Below are positions 541 to 60,589 of a stretch of DNA of 64,000 nt, one piece after another. Numbering within the stretch: the stretch's first letter is position 1; each line of letters starts with the position of its first letter. The DNA is from Ischnura elegans. Lineage: Eukaryota; Arthropoda; Insecta; Odonata; Coenagrionidae. Location: NCBI RefSeq assembly GCF_921293095.1, contig NC_060251.1, forward strand, positions 63,443,585 to 63,507,584, written 5' to 3'. Position numbers and translations under genes: made by a program. The notes beneath the pieces are model-generated. The model had not been told where the DNA came from and searched no databases. It was given only the letters and a program-made list of their open reading frames with translations.

Positions 541-3500
541 TGTCCATACACTAATACAAAATCCATATAAATACTATAAAGGTACCAGGAAATTATCAAT
601 ATGACTGTTTACTGAGCATCAGTATCATCAATTGGTGGTGATGATGGTCAGCCATAAATCCAGATCCAAAACTTATATTCTATAAGTCGATGACACCGAT
701 AGTACCGTATAGGGAATGGATGCTATATTACCGTTCAACAAATTTTCACTAAGCTTTCGTAAATCCATACTATGGCGACAATTTGCGCATACAATTGTTC
801 ATTGGATTTCAATAAAACGCTTTATAGCAAAACTTACTGTGATTAATCGTTTAAAAAATTATTATCATAATTAATAAGAGTAAATAAGTGTATAATTCAA
901 AGGCATTTGGTATTAAATAATAATTAGATATAAAAAAAGTATCAACTTCCGATAATTTTAAGATAAGAATGACGTCTTGAGAGAATCTGCAGTCTACATA
1001 GCAGGCTACATGTGTTATGTGTAAGAAAATTTCAGCAAAAAAAAACAAAAATTAAAATTTTTAGTGCCGTATTTCTTAGCGAAGTAGGTGAAATACTTTA
1101 AAATGCTTCATAACCAAACCTAGAGTTGAAGTATATTGCACCATAACATACCGTGAAGTATCGACCTAGATGTTCCTTGAACAGGGTTGTATGAAAGATT
1201 TTTTTGTTTCACGAAGGATGCGGTACTCCACTAGCAAATGCTTCCTTTGGCTTTTTTGTAAATGATACCGATGAATGAGATCATTTTCAAACTGAACAAA
1301 ATGTATGTAAGAATAATACCTTTGTTTTATCATAACCAAGTGTCTTCATTATTACATTACTCATCAAAGCCTACAATTAAAACGAATAAACCATAACATC
1401 TTGACGGAAAGAACAGAAGATCATATTTTGAAATAAGGAAAATGAGAAAAACATTAGATAGGTGCCTTGCTGAATGGCATTTGCTAGCTTACGATAAAAT
1501 GAATGGTACACATAAAAATGTCATGTTTCACGCAAGAATACAACGATGGTGCAATTACTTGTACTCGCGTGGCCCCCATGGTACATTGACAATATTGCGA
1601 TTGAAATTACATTTCAATGATAATGTTGACGATTAAAGACACCGGAAAAAAACTTTTCTAGCATGAAACATCGCAAAGTAAAATAGACCCATCAATAGAA
1701 GATTCATTGAGTGTAACACAGATTAAATACTTGTCAGAGATAACGGTGGTAACATATAAAACGGAAGCTTGCTGCGGTATATAAATCACTTGATAAGCCC
1801 ATGCTGTTCCAATAGTGCGGGGTCTGAATTTTAATGAGAGTTCTTCATGCATCTTGTATCCGGTGACCTCAAGTGCTACAGTCTATTTATAGCAAGAAAA
1901 GAATACTGTGACGTATAGAGCGTACGGATAAAATTTCTATCGCCCAGATAATTTTAACCTTTTTATCTTAAAAGAACATATGGTTACAGTAAATATACGA
2001 ATAATGTTTAATTCTCAGACGGCTATTACGTTGAATTTTGATTATGGTCCATTTGCAGGTACCCTTTAATCTTTTAAAAATATTATATTATCGCCTGAAA
2101 ATAATAGCAATAGTTAACAATCTCCCAACACAAATGACCACGCTTCCAACACACATAAAAATACGCTCTTATTTTCAGCTCAATCATCAATTTCCATGGT
2201 TGTAATAACCGCTGAAAAAAGTTAGATAATTTTCAGATAACTTCACAAAGTAAATAAATTTAGATTCTGTATGAATGGAATGAAGTATATTCATTCCTGA
2301 GTTGCTTCCAAAATAAGCCACACCCAAGCTTATGCTGATACTTAAGAAAAACGAAGATTAAAATATAAAGATGCAGAAACCAAGCACTATCAATGATGTT
2401 GAAGATTAGAAATGAATAGAAATTTCAATGAAAAACGTTATGACAAAAATTTAGCACCAAGTTAACGGCTTGGAGCGCAAACATTATTTTCTGTTAAGTT
2501 AACGTCTTATGCAGTCCGCATTGCCAATTTTACGTTGCTGATGAGTTTAATTATAAGAGTTTATGCAAATCGAAGTTACGGATTTAATTTTTTTTAACCT
2601 TTTCTTTAGAAAATTTTCGTTATAATTTTAATGATGGGATAGTAAAAGATCAATTAGGAAATAGGTTGGGTAGTAGGACAAAGTTTTTCCAATCTGCCTC
2701 CAGAGGTCACGCTCGCGAAGCGACAATAAATTTCCTACTTAGGTTCCTGGTCGCAGAATGATTAAATCATTCGTTGTATTATGTGCTCAATGATTTATGA
2801 AGTAAATGATACTTTATTGGGAAACAAAGTTAGTACTCTGGAGTACAATTAATAACGAATTATACCATTTCTAGATTATATTTTCATTCGTTGGAGGGTC
2901 GCAAATTCAACGTTCGATATTGTATGGCGAGAATAAATCAAGCTTAAGGAATCGTCTCGTGTGTAAACTTGTGCATTCTGATTTGAGATATTTATATCTT
3001 TTCCCGAAGATGAGGAAATGGATTTCTATAGAATCTCTCTACAAGTGAAGATAACGGCTGGTTCACCGTTTTTATTTTTGATAACCCCTGACGATTAAAA
3101 TTACATCTAAAACAACGATCAAGTCACGTACAAAGTTAAATACTCATAAAATGAAATAACTTATTACCAAGGAAATAGCAATGAAATACGACACATGAGA
3201 ACGATACTCTACATTAAAGAAAATGTCATGAAAAAAATTGTGAAATTACACTAACTTGCCATCAGTGCTAAGTAATTCTCCTCTACAATGACTCTAGTCG
3301 AATGTATGACTTTGGTTAAGGATATGATATTTAATTGCATCACATTCAAAATAACGCATACATTCTACGGAAAAAAGGACGCAGTCAACTTCACGGTTTT
3401 GTCCTGACAAATAGCAAATAAATAAGTTATTCATGAGAGAGACTGACAGCGATCTAAAACCTATCACAAACTGAATATCGTTTAGTAATTAGCTGTGCAT

Positions 3501-5318
3501 TGAAAATTATGGATAATTAGTGAATGAAAGCCGTAATGGAGCCAGCATTTTCATCTCTGGTTGTCACTCAGTGATACTGTTGAAAATATATATCAGTAAT
3601 GAGTGATAGTGTTCTCTTGCAAAACAGAAGGTCGCGAGTACGAGTCACACTTGGGTAAACTATTGTTAACCAAAGCTTTTGAATCCACATTCTTCAATTC
3701 CTAAGCATTTCTAAAGTACTACCTTCCATTTCTAAAGTAATAATTTTCCGGAAAAGAACTGTCCGCGTTGAAGCTAATACTGAATTGAGTATGTGCTCTG
3801 CGAGTATCAGAAACATTCACTAGTGGGATTGAAAACCAACCTGTTACTTTCGTGGCTCAAGAACTGAATCCTGAAATGAATGATATCAACGCCGTAAATT
3901 GCGTGCAACGTGAAAGCAGAATGGAAAAACTCCACCGATTTGATGGGGCATGTATGAAGAGAGCGAGAATGGGAGGGTATACCAGCGCAAACAATGAGTT
4001 GGATATAATAATTGTCGGATATCCTGTCACACTTGAGAATTCCGAATCATTTTGACTTTGAAACAAACTTTTGATTTTAGTTAAGACATAATTACGAATT
4101 TACGAAAAAGTGCAAAGTATAACAACAAAACTTTACATTGCCAACGGAGTGATAATTTTTATACGTCAGTTGCATTAAGGTATGATACAACTACACTTTT
4201 TATATCCTCCAGGAATTTTAAAACAAAAAATGAATATTTCGTCTATAGAAAACAAGCCCTAATAATATCGTAAAATAGCTTTTATGAAGTTTAAATCCCT
4301 TAGCCTGTTACTTTTCTACTATTGCCGTTGTATCTTGATATAAGAATTCAATAAATTTATTTGTAAACCCGGATGGTAGGTGAAAATGATCATAAAAATC
4401 GACCAATTCAGTAAAACTTAATGTAGCTCCAAATGAGGATTGTCAAAACATTAAACTGACGTTTGATGTAAGGTTTTGAGCAAAATATAACTGCTTCAAT
4501 TGCAAGTCTCAGCAGCAAAAATAATTTTTATCATCGGAAAAAGCTCTGAATAGCCAAAATGATTCGAGATCCTGAAAGATCTGGGTAATTCATTCATCTA
4601 TCGAATAGCTAAGGATATTTTGGAGTTTAAGACGCACAAGGTAAGCATTCGTCAAAAAAATGAAGATTCTAGAGAATTCAGCGGTTTCTCCTTCTCCTGT
4701 GAGTAGAAGCGTACGTAACTATTACTGATGCGTGAAATGAGTCTAAAAAGCTAAATAACAAGGTTAAAATATATGAGCTTGCGTCTTTAACTAGAATGCA
4801 TTTTAATCCTGTATCCAATAGCCCAGTAAAATGGAAATCCAACTTGCCTTCACACAAAGTAGCTAAATAATGTTAATTATGTAAGCAAGAAAATAACTAG
4901 ATTCTTGTGGGTTCAATAAGGATATGCAGAAATAGCGTACTTCCGGAAGTTACAGCCCTTATCATACGACTAGGAAGGTGGGAGTCGGGGTATTAGGTCG
5001 CGAATATTAAGGAATGTACCTTTAAGTAAGTCTGGATATTTTAATACAAGAAAAAGCTACTTCATTCTAGTTGGCCTAAAGAGTCGCAAGCCAACTATCT
5101 GCTCCATAATATGTAATCCATCTCCTAGCCCACTATATATTTGTAAAAAAATATAGCGAGAGCCCCGTGGAACTCACCTCACTGACCTAGCGCACGCCTT
5201 CAGGCCGTTTCATAGGAAGAATGAGCAATAATTTTAAATTGAGCACTTGGCGAAAAATTAGCGTCAAAACCTTGGGGAATTTTCAGAAAAAATAACGCGT
5301 ACTCGATGCCGTCTATCA
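541..5318. other. AT-rich stretch without a recognised gene
   Basis: I see no exon with convincing protein similarity, no long reading frame and no RNA gene here. I looked on the minus strand for the missing cyclic-nucleotide-binding exons of the channel at 6764-8210, in particular the conserved C-linker and beta-roll, and did not find them. The only structured item is a weak tRNA-like segment at 3595-3660. This region is probably intron of the channel gene, downstream of the exon. Confidence 0.5.
3595..3660 (+). repeat. Diverged tRNA-derived (SINE-like) segment
   Basis: The segment reads like a tRNA half, with an anticodon-arm-like part followed by a degenerate B box (GCGAGTACGAGTCAC). The B box differs from the GGTTCGANTCC consensus and no acceptor stem closes. 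It is most likely an old SINE head, not a working tRNA gene. Confidence 0.3.
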
Positions 5319-5428
5319 TGCGAAAATTCGACGGAGAAAAATCATTCACCTTGACCGGGATTCGGACCCGGATCTCCCCATTCCTGGTCTTGTGCTTTAG
5401 CCAGGTTAAGCTACCGAGGCGTCTTTCA
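5319..5428 (-). repeat. tRNA-derived SINE head, left copy of an inverted pair
   Basis: On the minus strand this reads as a tRNA-like module with an A-box-like GGTAGCTTAACCTGGCTAA and a B box within GGGTCCGAATCCCGG. It is followed by an AT-rich tail (AATGATTTTTCTC). The same module recurs inverted at 5492-5598, and homology extends over about 110 bp of both copies. The two therefore form a head-to-head pair with about 60 bp between them. The extended tail argues for a SINE and against a true tRNA gene. Confidence 0.6.
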
Positions 5429-6763: not shown

Positions 6764-8210
6764 CTTGAAACTCCTTCCTCGCGGCGCTGACGCTGGTCAC
6801 TATGTTAGCCACATGACCCAGCACCGTAGCGAAGAGCATCAGTCCGAAGAGCAGCTGCGCTATCACAAATAAATATTCGCCCTTCGACCTGGGCCTAGGG
6901 AGGTCACCTATCGTAGTCAGAGCCAGCGTGCACCAATAATAACTTTGCAAATATTGCTTAGCAACGTCCGGCTGCTGGTTACCCCCGTAGTGTTCTCCCG
7001 ATCCAACCCCCCCTCCTCCCCCGCCCCCACCGCCGCCCCTACCTTCCCCCCCCCCCGTCGAACACCCAGTTCTTGCTGCCGAAGCCGTTGTTCTTGGAGA
7101 TTATGTGGTAGAGGCACCCGTTCCAGTGAAAGATCACCAGAAGGTAGTGTATGAGGGAAAGGGCACGGAAGAGGTTGGGATAGTTCGTGTGTCTCTCCGT
7201 TCGGTCCATGAAACCCCAGAACCTGTATATCTTGACCAGTCGGAAGGAACGTAGTATCGAGTTGAAACCGACCGAGAGGTATAAGAAGTCCAGGGGAAGG
7301 AGACACAAGCAGTCTATGTAGAACGTCGTCGAGTTCATGTAGTGGGACCTGAGTTTGGCCGAGTCCGTCTGAAGGACGCCGTCCTCGAGGTAACCCGTAC
7401 GGAAGTGAAACACAATGTCGGCCAGGTAAAGGAAGTCCGACAGATAGTCCAAACAGAACCACACGACCAGCGAGTCCCTGTCTATCTCCTGGAAGGCGAA
7501 CCTGTATATCACTGCCCAGAAGTTGTAGAGGAACGCCAGCGAAACAACCATGGACCAATAGTAGCACAGCCTCCCCGCCGGGTCGAACACGAACGACCAG
7601 CGGCAGCGGTTCGCCCCGCCGGACACGCCGCCGCCCCCCAAAGTCCCGCCTCCCGCGGGAGTCCCCGCCAGGGCCCCCTGGGTGCTCACCGCACCGCGCC
7701 TCCGCCTCCCGGCCACCTGCTGGTTGTGGTGCCGGTACGCGTCCCCGCCGCCGTGGCTCGCTGCCCCCACCGACGAGGCGTACGAGGCGTCCAACCGCCC
7801 CGGGCCCCCGCCCCTCCGCCCCCGACCTCCACCCCCGGTAGCCCCGCCACCGCCTCCCCCTTCGCGGGTCTTCCGGGAGAGGTCGAGTTCGGAGGCGACG
7901 TGGGCCCGGTTCACGTAGGCCGCGGAGCGCTTGCGGTTGCCCCCGCCCAGACCGCCGCCGCCTCCGACGCCGAGGCGGCAGCTCACGAGGTCCAGGAGGC
8001 TCTGCTTGGACACGGACTTCCCTCCGCCCCCGGCCCGCGCGACGACGCTCTCCGCGCTGCTCTTGCCCCCGACGCTCACCACGCCCCCGCTCACGGCCCC
8101 CACGCCCACCACGAAGGCACCACCGCCGCCCCCGACGCCCCCGGGGGACGCGTCCAGCCGGTTGCCCGACGAGCTGAGCCGGTCTGCGATCATTCGGGAC
8201 GATGGACTCC
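6764..8210 (-). CDS. Cngl: Cyclic nucleotide-gated channel, CNGL type: large internal exon (partial gene)
   Basis: This exon encodes the membrane part of a cyclic nucleotide-gated, non-selective cation channel of the invertebrate CNGL family, a plasma-membrane channel. From the acceptor (8211-8220, TCCTTTGCAG on the minus strand) come about 200 residues of Gly/Ser/Arg-rich N-terminus. S1 follows (CYYWSMVVSLAFLYNFW), then S2-S3, and S4 with spaced basic residues (ILRSFRLVKIYRFW). S5 comes next, then the pore CTLALTTIGDLPRP with the CNG-type TIGD filter, then S6 (LFGLMLFATVLGHVANIV) and SAARKEFQ of the C-linker. It ends at a donor (6762-6763) in phase 1, as expected for this family. The reading frame breaks between S5 and the pore at an 11-G run (7046-7056). 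Removing one G leaves an uninterrupted frame through 6972-7045. The alternative is a 71-bp intron with a poor acceptor. The CNBD exons and the start codon are not in the window, so N-terminal and C-terminal coding is incomplete. CNG identity is secure; the subfamily assignment is from pore and S6 sequence. Confidence 0.9.
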
Positions 8211-8282
8211 CTGCAAAGGAATGAAATGGTGCATTTGAGAAGATAGACACAGGAAATTTAAAACAAATAACTTGCTTTATAA

Positions 8283-8635
8283 GCCACTATCAGGTGACCC
8301 GGCGTTGCATGGGAAGTATAATACCCAGAGAAGGGGGAAACTCGGAATTCATAGTTACCAAACTTGATTTTTAGGTAAAGGAAGGTTTTAGGAAAGAAGG
8401 TATGGTGATATAGGTATGTATACATAAGTAACAGCAAACAATGGAAGTAAAGTTTTTTAACGTGACGTAGCAAACGGTAATGAGAAAACGACGCAAAGGA
8501 TGCGTTGGACACAACCACAAGTAGCACTGCGGGATTTTGATGCATGAGAGCCACCAGCGTAATAACTTTGGTTGCAATCCGTGCAGCTCTATGGAAATCC
8601 ATGACAAACAAATATCCTATTTCATAGGTACTTCT
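8283..8635 (-). mobile_element. Helitron-like non-autonomous element, diverged copy
   Basis: The 3' end (read on the minus strand) carries the short hairpin CCCATGCAACGCCGGG near the terminus, as in the better copies at 18838 and 55226, although the terminal CTAG is mutated here. The internal sequence (roughly 8455-8630) matches the interiors of the 15.3-15.8 kb and 56.1 kb copies. It lies just upstream of the channel exon, inside the presumed intron. It is probably a short derivative with no Rep/Hel coding. Confidence 0.5.
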
Positions 8636-55215: not shown

Positions 55216-55677
55216 TTGATATGTATTACTAGCAGGCCACCCGGCGATGCTCGGGAAGGACACTACCAGTAGATGTAGAAACCTTGGAATTCATGGTCAC
55301 ATAGTAGGATTTTTAGGTAAAGGAACAAAGTAGGTACGATGATGGCATACATGTGTAACAGCAAACAATAGAAGAAACGATTTCCGTTTACCGCGCACGG
55401 GATCAGGTTATACCCTGCTCCACAGCATTGATCATTATGTGTCGATACCTCAACTGCACAAATGCTCAATAATCGCCCACCGAATCAAAGCCGCTCATCT
55501 AGTGGCCCAACATTACGAATCCGCTCAGCTGGCAGAAGCCGGAGCATAAACGCTCACCTCCAATTATCCTAGCTTCGGATGTATTCAACGGTGTCTGGCG
55601 AGATGTTGTGGAACATATTGCAGTTATAAATGAAAGTGAAAAAACTTTGTGAATGTCCACAGTATTTTTTCAAGTAC

Positions 55678-55709
55678 GACGCGTTTCAGCGAATCATCGC
55701 TATCATCAG
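55678..55709 (-). ncRNA. Hammerhead-ribozyme-like core, minus strand
   Basis: Mirror copy of the core at 55772-55803, identical across the core. It lies on the strand on which the channel gene would be transcribed. A transcript spanning both arms could instead fold into one long hairpin, which would compete with ribozyme folding. Confidence 0.65.
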
Positions 55710-55771
55710 GTAGTGTAATAATAAAATTTTTAATAATAATAATAATTATAAATAATAAATTTTTTTTGTAC

Positions 55772-55803
55772 CTGATGATAGCGATGATTCGCTGAAACGC
55801 GTC
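55772..55803 (+). ncRNA. Hammerhead-ribozyme-like core, plus strand
   Basis: CTGATGA, a 5-bp stem II, GAAA and GTC are in type I order, closed by a 4-bp stem I. Stem III is minimal (A-U and C-G around two bases), as reported for hammerheads in Penelope-like elements. One unpaired U between CTGATGA and stem II departs from the classical consensus and recurs in other modules of this window. Predicted cleavage is after 55803. Activity is unproven. Confidence 0.65.
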
Positions 55804-56215
55804 GTACTTGAATAAATACTGTGGACATTCACAAAGTTTTTTCACTTTCATTTATAACTAGCTTCGGAGGTGAGCGTTTATGCTCCGGATACTGTTAGCT
55901 GAGCGGATTCGTATTGATGGGGTCCTAGATGAGCGTATTTGATTCGGTGGGCGACTTTTGAGCGTTTGTTCAGTGGAAGTATCGGTATGTCTACACGTGC
56001 GTAGACAAAAAACGTAATGTGAACGCATACCCTAGCATAATGGTTTGCACCAAGTAGTAATAGGGTTTTTTCTCCCTTTGAGTGCGTCAAGAGGTGAGCC
56101 TATCCTGCAGGATATCCAGCCACAGGTGTTGTATGACGTGACGTAATAAACGGTAGTGAGAAAACGACGCTAAGGACGCGCCTGACACAACCAGAGGTAG
56201 AACAACGGTGTTTGG

Positions 56216-59060: not shown

Positions 59061-59971
59061 GTATAAGGACTGTGTAAAATAAATCTGTAAAATACGTCTG
59101 CTGTATGTTTACTGCTGTAAAAAACTGCACCATGTACATCACATCAATACGAGTTAATGGTCCACTGTGCAACATTTTTGAATAAGTCTGTAGGAGAGGA
59201 AATTAATTGCCGAAAAAAATATAGGATAACATTTAAAAAAGACATACCGCTGTTCATATCTTTGTAAATAATAAAGCTACAAGAAAGGCAGTCATGCTGA
59301 TTAATGTCCCCCTGACGGCTAATGAACATTTGCTTCACACATTTTTGAATTTGCATCTGGACAAAAAGTTATTTCGGGTGGTCAAGATAAATGGGACACC
59401 GTGCATAAACATGCTTCATAAGTAGCATCCGATGAAAATCTTCCTTTCTAGGAATACGCATTGAAAATTCCATGGAGAGAGCGCAAGTGTTAAGGAAGTA
59501 AAAGGCAGGCAAGAGACAAAAATGTGCCGTTCGCGCGGGAGACATTCGCCTCCTTTTCTGCAGAACAATATTCCCCTTTATTCTAACACTCTGGTAGCAG
59601 CCGGGCAGATGATTGAGGAGTGGAAAAAGAAGTGCTGGGGTGCGAGAGAGCAATCTGCCATCCCCATCCCCTCTCCTCCAACTTAAATTGCTTCTTCCGC
59701 AAAGCAAAGAAGAGGGAGAATGCGCATCTGGGGGGAGGAAGGGTTGGTCGATCTAAATTAACGCACCTCGGGAGAAACGGCGAGGGACTCCGGGAGTGGA
59801 GATGGTGAGGGAGACACGAGGAGGGGTGAATGCGGAGACAAGATATCGGAGCCTTAAGTCACGAATATTACTATAGAGGACTCTGCAGTTGGCCACTAGG
59901 CATGCACGGTGATTCAGGAGGAATATGCAATACCTCAGGAAGCGGAGGAAGAAATTTTAAAGTATTTTTCT
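59061..59971. other. No recognised gene
   Basis: A GC-richer patch at 59600-59900 has overlapping short frames on both strands. None has a known domain. Confidence 0.4.
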
Positions 59972-60221
59972 ATACCTCCACTGCAAAAACGCTCAACGAT
60001 CGCCCACCGAATCAAATCCGCTCATCTAGTAGCCCAACAATACGAATCTGCTCAGCTGGCAGTGTCCGAAGCATAAACGCTCATACCTCCAAGCTTGGAG
60101 AATAGGAGATGAGCGTTTATGCTCCGAACACTGACAGCTGAGCGGATTCGTATTGTTGGGCTACTAGATGATCGGATTTGATTCGGTTGGCGATTGTTGA
60201 GCGCTTTTGCAGAGGAGGTAT
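59972..60221. mobile_element. Foldback MITE, intact copy (113-bp arms)
   Basis: The arms 59972-60084 and 60109-60221 pair with about nine mismatches and no gaps, around a 24-bp centre with CCAAGCTTGG. Tips are TACCTCCACTGCAAAAACGC and its complement. TA at the borders is compatible with a TA target site but is not decisive. The same element, split, is at 55445-55982. Confidence 0.85.
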
Positions 60222-60589
60222 CGTTTTGTCCATAAATATGGGGTCGAACTCCTTAGTAACTGAGCTATGACAACGCGAACATTATTAGAATGAACTTTGC
60301 AGTTACCATGAACGGTTTTTTGAGTGTCCACCCTTTTTGACGTTTTATTTTAGACTCTAAATTTTTAAAGACATTTAATAATTAATGTTGGACGAAAATG
60401 TGCGAATATAAATGTCGGGAACAATGTTTGAACTTAATTAAACGAGAGATTTCAGTGAGTATCAAATACACGATTGCTCATTTTCAACCATTTTGAGATT
60501 AACTCCCATATTCCTCCTGAAACACCCTGTATTGTCACCCACCGCTTACAAAAAAGATTAAACAGAGCCCGATCGATTTTAGACGAGTT
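60222..60589. other. No recognised feature
   Basis: AT-rich sequence between the foldback MITE and the next element. Confidence 0.4.

Follow-up and report, generated by a model that had tools for sequence, protein, structure and literature searches.

A 278-bp insertion in Ischnura elegans is very probably a minimal Penelope-like element insertion made of two opposed leader copies

Results

A 278-bp insert lies within an older palindromic repeat. We analyzed a window of 64,000 nucleotides from Ischnura elegans (contig NC_060251.1, positions 63,443,585 to 63,507,584 of the forward strand), and feature coordinates are given within this window. The insert spans 55580-55857, and these coordinates hold on re-check. 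The exact 11-bp target site duplication reported in the first-pass annotation of this DNA is confirmed: CTAGCTTCGGA is found at 55569-55579 on the left of the insert and at 55858-55868 on its right. The insert interrupts an older palindromic host repeat, whose left (55443-55561) and right (55866-55984) arms are 119 bp long and 86% complementary. The paralogous repeat at approximately 59963-60230 is uninterrupted, and its aligned middle holds one diverged copy of the target. This empty repeat with a single target copy shows that the insertion and its duplication are real. The host repeat, of which the second copy lies 4 kb from the first, is probably an older fold-back mobile element that became the target of the insert.

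Two other features were observed in the window. An exon-like frame of a cyclic nucleotide-gated channel lies at 7039-8286 on the minus strand (best solved match CNGA2, E 1.4e-48). A tRNA-like Rfam match lies at 5347-5420, also on the minus strand, with 31.2 bits, just above the gathering score; either a tRNA gene or a tRNA-derived SINE would fit it.

The insert consists of a tail, two opposed arms, and a centre. At the left lies a 42-bp tail (55580-55621, minus strand), which forms the outer 3' end of a fragment of a Penelope-like element (PLE) pseudo-LTR (pLTR). It is followed by the left arm (55622-55712), a pLTR leader that is in sense on the minus strand, and by an AT-rich centre (55713-55768) that holds the head-to-head junction. 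The final 4 bases of this centre (55765-55768) agree with the sequence at which the family leader usually begins. The right arm (55769-55857) is the same leader in sense on the plus strand and has no tail. Positions 55622-55712 and 55769-55859 pair across 91 positions with a single mismatch at 55668. The arms had been described as 91-bp inverted repeats with one mismatch; the mismatch stands, but the element's own arm is 89 bp, because the 2 bp at 55858-55859 are part of the target duplication.

Each arm carries a minimal type I hammerhead-like motif. In the right arm (55768-55807, plus strand), the order is GUAC, CUGAUGA, U, AGCGA-UGAU-UCGCU, GAAA, CGCG, UC, GUAC, with GUAC/GUAC as stem I and a predicted cut after 55803. 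The left-arm motif (55675-55712, minus strand) has the same order, with the core followed by stem II (AGCGA/TCGCT), GAAA, ACGCGU, and GUC, but it opens with CUAC and its stem I is 3 bp (CTAC/GTAC). The complete hammerhead order with a 4-bp stem I first ascribed to both arms is thus found in the right arm, while in the left arm stem I is shorter. Compared with the canonical core, both motifs have one additional U between CUGAUGA and stem II. Helix III would consist of a single A-U pair capped by a CGCG loop; alternatively, ACGCGU of two copies could pair over 6 bp. The predicted pairing of two motif copies is -22.7 kcal/mol, versus -9.9 kcal/mol for each alone.

The loose pattern CTGATGA-N-GAAAC-N-GTC occurs twice in the window, where 0.08 matches are expected, and is confined to these two arms; because the arms are inverted copies, the two matches amount to one event. 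A strict descriptor (4-bp stem I, stem II, GAAA, and A15.1-U16.1) matches the right arm alone; when the window is shuffled with its dinucleotides preserved, 1 shuffle in 300 produces a match. The motif is largely conserved in the window and in 19 loci, where the core and the stems show scattered changes. Among copies of a second subfamily that fit its search expression, to which this listing was restricted, loop II is longer and different, and the core and stems are alike. According to the available text of two reviews, PLE hammerheads are minimal type I ribozymes without helix III or tertiary contacts and may cleave as dimers (PMC7761336, PMC6155905). The repeats had been proposed to encode a PLE-type hammerhead, and as a motif this is upheld: the pLTR carries a candidate minimal type I hammerhead.

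The Rfam hammerhead models give no match in the window at gathering score and none in the insert region at E up to 10. They also miss the leader motif of L068/L045, a PLE copy with reverse transcriptase (RT) and GIY-YIG domains. The covariance check suggested in the first-pass annotation yields no hammerhead, and because the PLE copy is missed too, this is weak evidence against the motif. Some strong-looking miRNA and sRNA matches reflect the long hairpin described below, and all fall below their gathering scores. A loose hammerhead pattern also occurs in eight viral contigs and one bacterial contig, which we take as chance; none of the eight viral loci has an Rfam match at gathering score. 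The leader pattern has no match among the viral contigs, a BLAST search against plasmids returned none, and no PLE-like leader was found among the listed matches of the loose hammerhead pattern in these collections.

Transcripts of the whole insert, from either strand, are predicted to fold arm to arm into a hairpin (-157 and -153 kcal/mol). The hammerhead at this locus is thus predicted to be trapped within a long hairpin, and the earlier idea that either transcript could be processed appears doubtful.

The tail is the start of a PLE open reading frame (ORF). Read on the minus strand from an ATG at 55616, it encodes MFHNISPDTVEY, which corresponds to codons 1-12 of the PLE ORF. In L068, a hammerhead leader is followed by an ATG and MFHNISPNTVEYICNASTAHQAKLF, and on into the PLE frame. 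This locus overlaps L045, and the MFHNISPNTVEY that follows the L068 ATG continues into the L045 frame, so that the tail peptide, with one residue changed, opens the PLE frame in L068/L045. We identify the tail as the ORF start because leader, ATG, and peptide run into this frame. The tail frame alone is weak evidence, since an ATG followed by 10 or more open codons is present in 12% of randomly chosen 42-base stretches of the window; the L068/L045 ORF is decisive. We read the ORF start in full in a related subfamily whose protein is ~75% identical, the fetched copies of the window's subfamily being 5'-truncated. A search of solved structures with the 35-residue tail frame gave a single chance-level match (E 1.2). 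In PLEs, a tail of 30-40 bp at one repeat matches the ORF start; here the tail is 42 bp long and covers 12 codons. The description of the insert as coding-free is not borne out.

The arms belong to a PLE family with RT and GIY-YIG frames. In many copies, a TATATAAG box lies upstream of the leader, and further upstream is the 3' end of a frame finishing in a GIY-YIG-like domain. The pLTRs follow a frame with SGIYEISCDSCDAKYIGQTGR, assigned to GIY-YIG with a Pfam E value of 0.0032, which is below the curated cut-off. A protein search with this frame gave 15,868 first-look candidates, of which 107 were scored. Two copies of the related subfamily have both domains: L054 (RVT_1, E 8.7e-13; GIY-YIG, E 0.00097, below the curated cut-off) and L045 (RVT_1, E 1.1e-12; GIY-YIG, E 0.0017, likewise below it). 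The L045 frame runs for 823 residues without a stop and contains MGSPLSP and FYWFRYVDDIL. The repeats therefore adjoin an ORF with RT and GIY-YIG domains, with the long frames coming from the related subfamily. The first reading of the insert as a PLE-related retroelement insertion is well founded, its arms being the 5' part of a PLE pLTR. We infer that the insert needed PLE machinery in trans.

PLEs are very abundant in this genome, as the 15,868 candidates for one GIY-YIG frame illustrate. The two subfamilies share the tail peptide, and a further PLE group is ~42-45% identical. On C15, matches to the insert at 6208557, 6213391, and 6218227 (cf. L037) are spaced ~4.8 kb apart, which suggests a tandem duplication that included the insert.

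Other copies share the outer ends of the insert but not its centre. The host genome is 1.72 Gb, and the 278-bp query gave 881 candidates, of which 40 were scored for the element. Among these 40, five places besides the window match at near full length (80-86%); four are independent, as L020 and L021 share flanks. Many scored copies match the tail and left arm alone, at 96-99%. We fetched 20 regions, whose flanks differ with the exception of L020/L021. The tail-bearing arm ends at the exact end base of the window insert in 17 of these 20 loci and 2-3 bases short of it in the remaining 3. The centres, on the other hand, differ among the five independent short copies, window included, and the window's centre is present in no scored copy (40 of 881). 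The junctions of L018 and L020 hold additional, partial copies of the hammerhead 5' part, which in L020 run in both orientations. This is the pattern that template switching by the enzyme within the leader would leave.

These copies bear on the possibility that the insert is a distinct, non-autonomous retrozyme-like element, with two opposed hammerhead modules copied as a unit via ribozyme-processed RNA. The hammerhead order is real, short copies do exist, and the outer ends are common to other copies, as the first-pass annotation anticipated for its copy search. A common centre is absent from the scored copies: no unlinked copies sharing both ends and centre were found among the 40 of 881, and movement of a distinct element as a unit is unsupported at this scope. 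The tail is coding, and the predicted hairpins would work against processing of whole transcripts. We consider copying as a unit improbable, and the arm ends described next weigh further against it.

The predicted ribozyme cut does not coincide with the ends of the arms. We inspected 22 arms and dropped four (L069, L070, L062, and L041) that continue into normal upstream pLTR. Positions are given relative to the leader start and are BLAST ends, which may be some bases off. Leader similarity is lost at -3 to -7 in 16 of the 18 remaining arms, two of which share one L027 junction; in the other two, it is lost at 0 (the left arm of the window) and at -10. The TATA-like box starts at -34, and the -3 to -7 end points fit an mRNA start ~30 nt downstream of it, which would make this a putative transcription start site. 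The predicted cut falls at leader position 35 in the window subfamily and 38 in the second subfamily. Ten 5'-truncated arms start at 19, 28, 40, 44, 48, 48, 61, 61, 67, and 117, and none of the ten starts at the cut. Because the arms of the window also continue through the cleavage site, we conclude that the ribozyme did not set the ends. Instead of the ribozyme-defined element first envisaged, we find outer ends that are recurrent PLE end points.

Opposed pairs have one tail each. Of 53 sources examined, 21 independent loci have a counted opposed pair, and the remaining sources have a single arm or another arrangement in the stretch covered. Three rows were left out of all counts: L021, which is the L020 flank in opposite orientation, and L038 and L051, which are the same places as L028 and L031, respectively. 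We find exactly one tail-bearing arm in all 21 counted pairs, and the arm that lacks the tail extends to leader position 85-100. Twelve of these loci come from a query that contains the tail and are therefore biased towards at least one tail; the nine from the protein query are free of this bias, and all nine have one tail per pair.

The inverted pair might also have arisen by self-priming, in which one cDNA snaps back on itself, rather than by priming on both target strands. According to the available text of PMC3846280, palindromes at inverted junctions led to this proposal for PLEs of Adineta vaga, and the extra partial leader repeats in the centres of L018 and L020 are in line with it. However, snap-back arms should share their 3' end, tail included, unless trimmed, whereas every counted pair has exactly one tail. 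In addition, the tail-less arm ends near the second site at which reverse transcription would start. Self-priming is therefore unlikely, though less so than copying as a unit.

Target duplications enclose most pairs. They are 8-15 bp long in 18 of the 21 counted pairs. L018 and L072 have a 7-bp duplication only, a length that is reached by 9 and 32 of 200 shuffles, respectively, and no target duplication was found for the counted pair of L027. Where a pair lies inside one duplication, both arms must have arrived in one event, and the head-to-head pLTRs of the window lie within 11-bp copies. Long inverted repeats and duplications of 9-11 bp are also traits of Mutator-like MITEs. A DNA transposon MITE of this or another kind would account for the long inverted arms and the 11-bp duplication, yet 42 bp lie outside the arm at the left end, the length of the duplication varies among copies, and the arms are part of a PLE whose frames encode RT and GIY-YIG. 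As the inverted repeats do not lie at both extreme ends and the duplication length is not fixed, we regard a MITE origin as negligible in probability.

One locus shows that a junction can be duplicated after it has formed. In L027, one centre, which differs from that of the window, occurs twice (3233-3352 and 4001-4197); the two copies are separated by 0.9 kb, face opposite ways, and differ in their outer ends. This could reflect a local inverted duplication, or a unit or junction that was copied again. The centre is shared by the counted pair of L027 and another opposed pair at this locus, which is broken: its arms reach 80 and 59, and neither has a tail. This broken pair lies outside the count of 21, and its inclusion would give one tail in 21 of 22 pairs. 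A centre that is shared despite different outer ends is what a copied unit would give, as would a local inverted duplication. On account of L027, we have slightly raised our still low estimate for copying as a unit and slightly lowered our confidence in the head-to-head joining of two leader cDNAs, set out below.

Discussion

We conclude that the insert is very probably a minimal PLE insertion without an ORF body, in which two cDNAs of the mRNA leader were joined head to head. The PLE protein, with its RT and GIY-YIG endonuclease, would cut both target strands ~11 bp apart. On one strand, reverse transcription would begin inside the ORF start, at about base 37 of the ORF, and on the other strand it would begin just before the ATG. 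Synthesis of each cDNA would continue to the 5' terminus of a PLE mRNA whose start lies ~30 nt past the TATA box. A small amount of filler would then link the two cDNA ends head to head, and repair would close the gaps. The hammerhead would be a passenger in the leader, uncleaved in both templates.

This reading points to a more general possibility, to which we give slightly less than an even chance: that PLE insertion is an asymmetric two-primer reaction in which every event employs both internal start sites, with reverse transcription starting within the ORF on one target strand and before the ATG on the other. If so, the 278-bp insert would be a relic of this reaction in its minimal form, with both templates being mRNA leaders that carry an uncut hammerhead. 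The assignment of one start site to each target strand is our own addition and stands as a prediction. We found no prior count of tail asymmetry in opposed pairs in the open-licence literature, although such a count may have been published elsewhere.

PLE integration is poorly understood. An insert with little beyond two reverse transcription products, together with its sister copies, shows where synthesis started and stopped on each side. Direct tests are possible both for the one-tail rule and for the end points near the putative transcription start, and our data argue against a role of the hammerhead in defining where inserted DNA ends.

The closest likeness is to PLEs of Adineta vaga. As described in the available text of PMC3846280, these have inverted pLTRs, one of which bears a 31-bp tail extending the start of the ORF, and a 9-bp duplication, and self-priming is favoured there for head-to-head repeats. 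Like Pen2a and others in that text, the insert and its family show head-to-head pLTRs, one tail that extends the ORF start, a short duplication, and an ORF with RT and GIY-YIG. Unlike them, the insert is leader and tail only, with no ORF body, and its tail-less arm stops before the ATG, whereas the Pen2a pLTR includes 12 codons. The accessible part of a curation guide names inverted pLTRs and short 3' extensions as peculiarities of PLEs (PMC8969392).

The mechanism can be compared with PAc, the Poseidon element of Anolis carolinensis, as covered by the available sections of PMC11167929. In vitro, both target strands are cut and extended, and reverse transcription starts inside the RNA at two neighbouring sites that delimit the tail. 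Two internal start sites with a tail between, and a hammerhead at the junction of leader and ORF, are common to PAc and the insert. The positions differ: PAc starts 111-118 bp into the ORF, while the starts in the window would lie ~37 nt into the ORF and just before the ATG. Insertion by PAc is reported there to be unchanged by hammerhead mutants, and PAc showed no strand difference in the start of reverse transcription, whereas each counted pair here has one end of either kind.

Retrozymes offer a second comparison. PLEs have been proposed to move metazoan non-LTR retrozymes (PMC7761336, in the text available), and these share with the insert a small size and a type I hammerhead (PMC7229834). 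As the available part of the latter source describes them, retrozymes consist of repeats in direct tandem array, contain classical type I hammerheads, and form circular RNAs; the insert differs from them in its opposed arms, its minimal motif, and its coding tail. We find neither direct tandem repeats of ~150-400 bp with type I hammerheads, the arms being opposed, nor a non-coding sequence, the tail being the start of the PLE ORF. Like the minimal PLE hammerheads that reviews credit to Cervera and de la Pena (2014) and Lunse et al. (2017), the motif is type I, has a very short or absent helix III, and includes a self-complementary ACGCGU able to pair between two copies. As a candidate ribozyme, it stands apart by the extra U before stem II relative to the canonical core.
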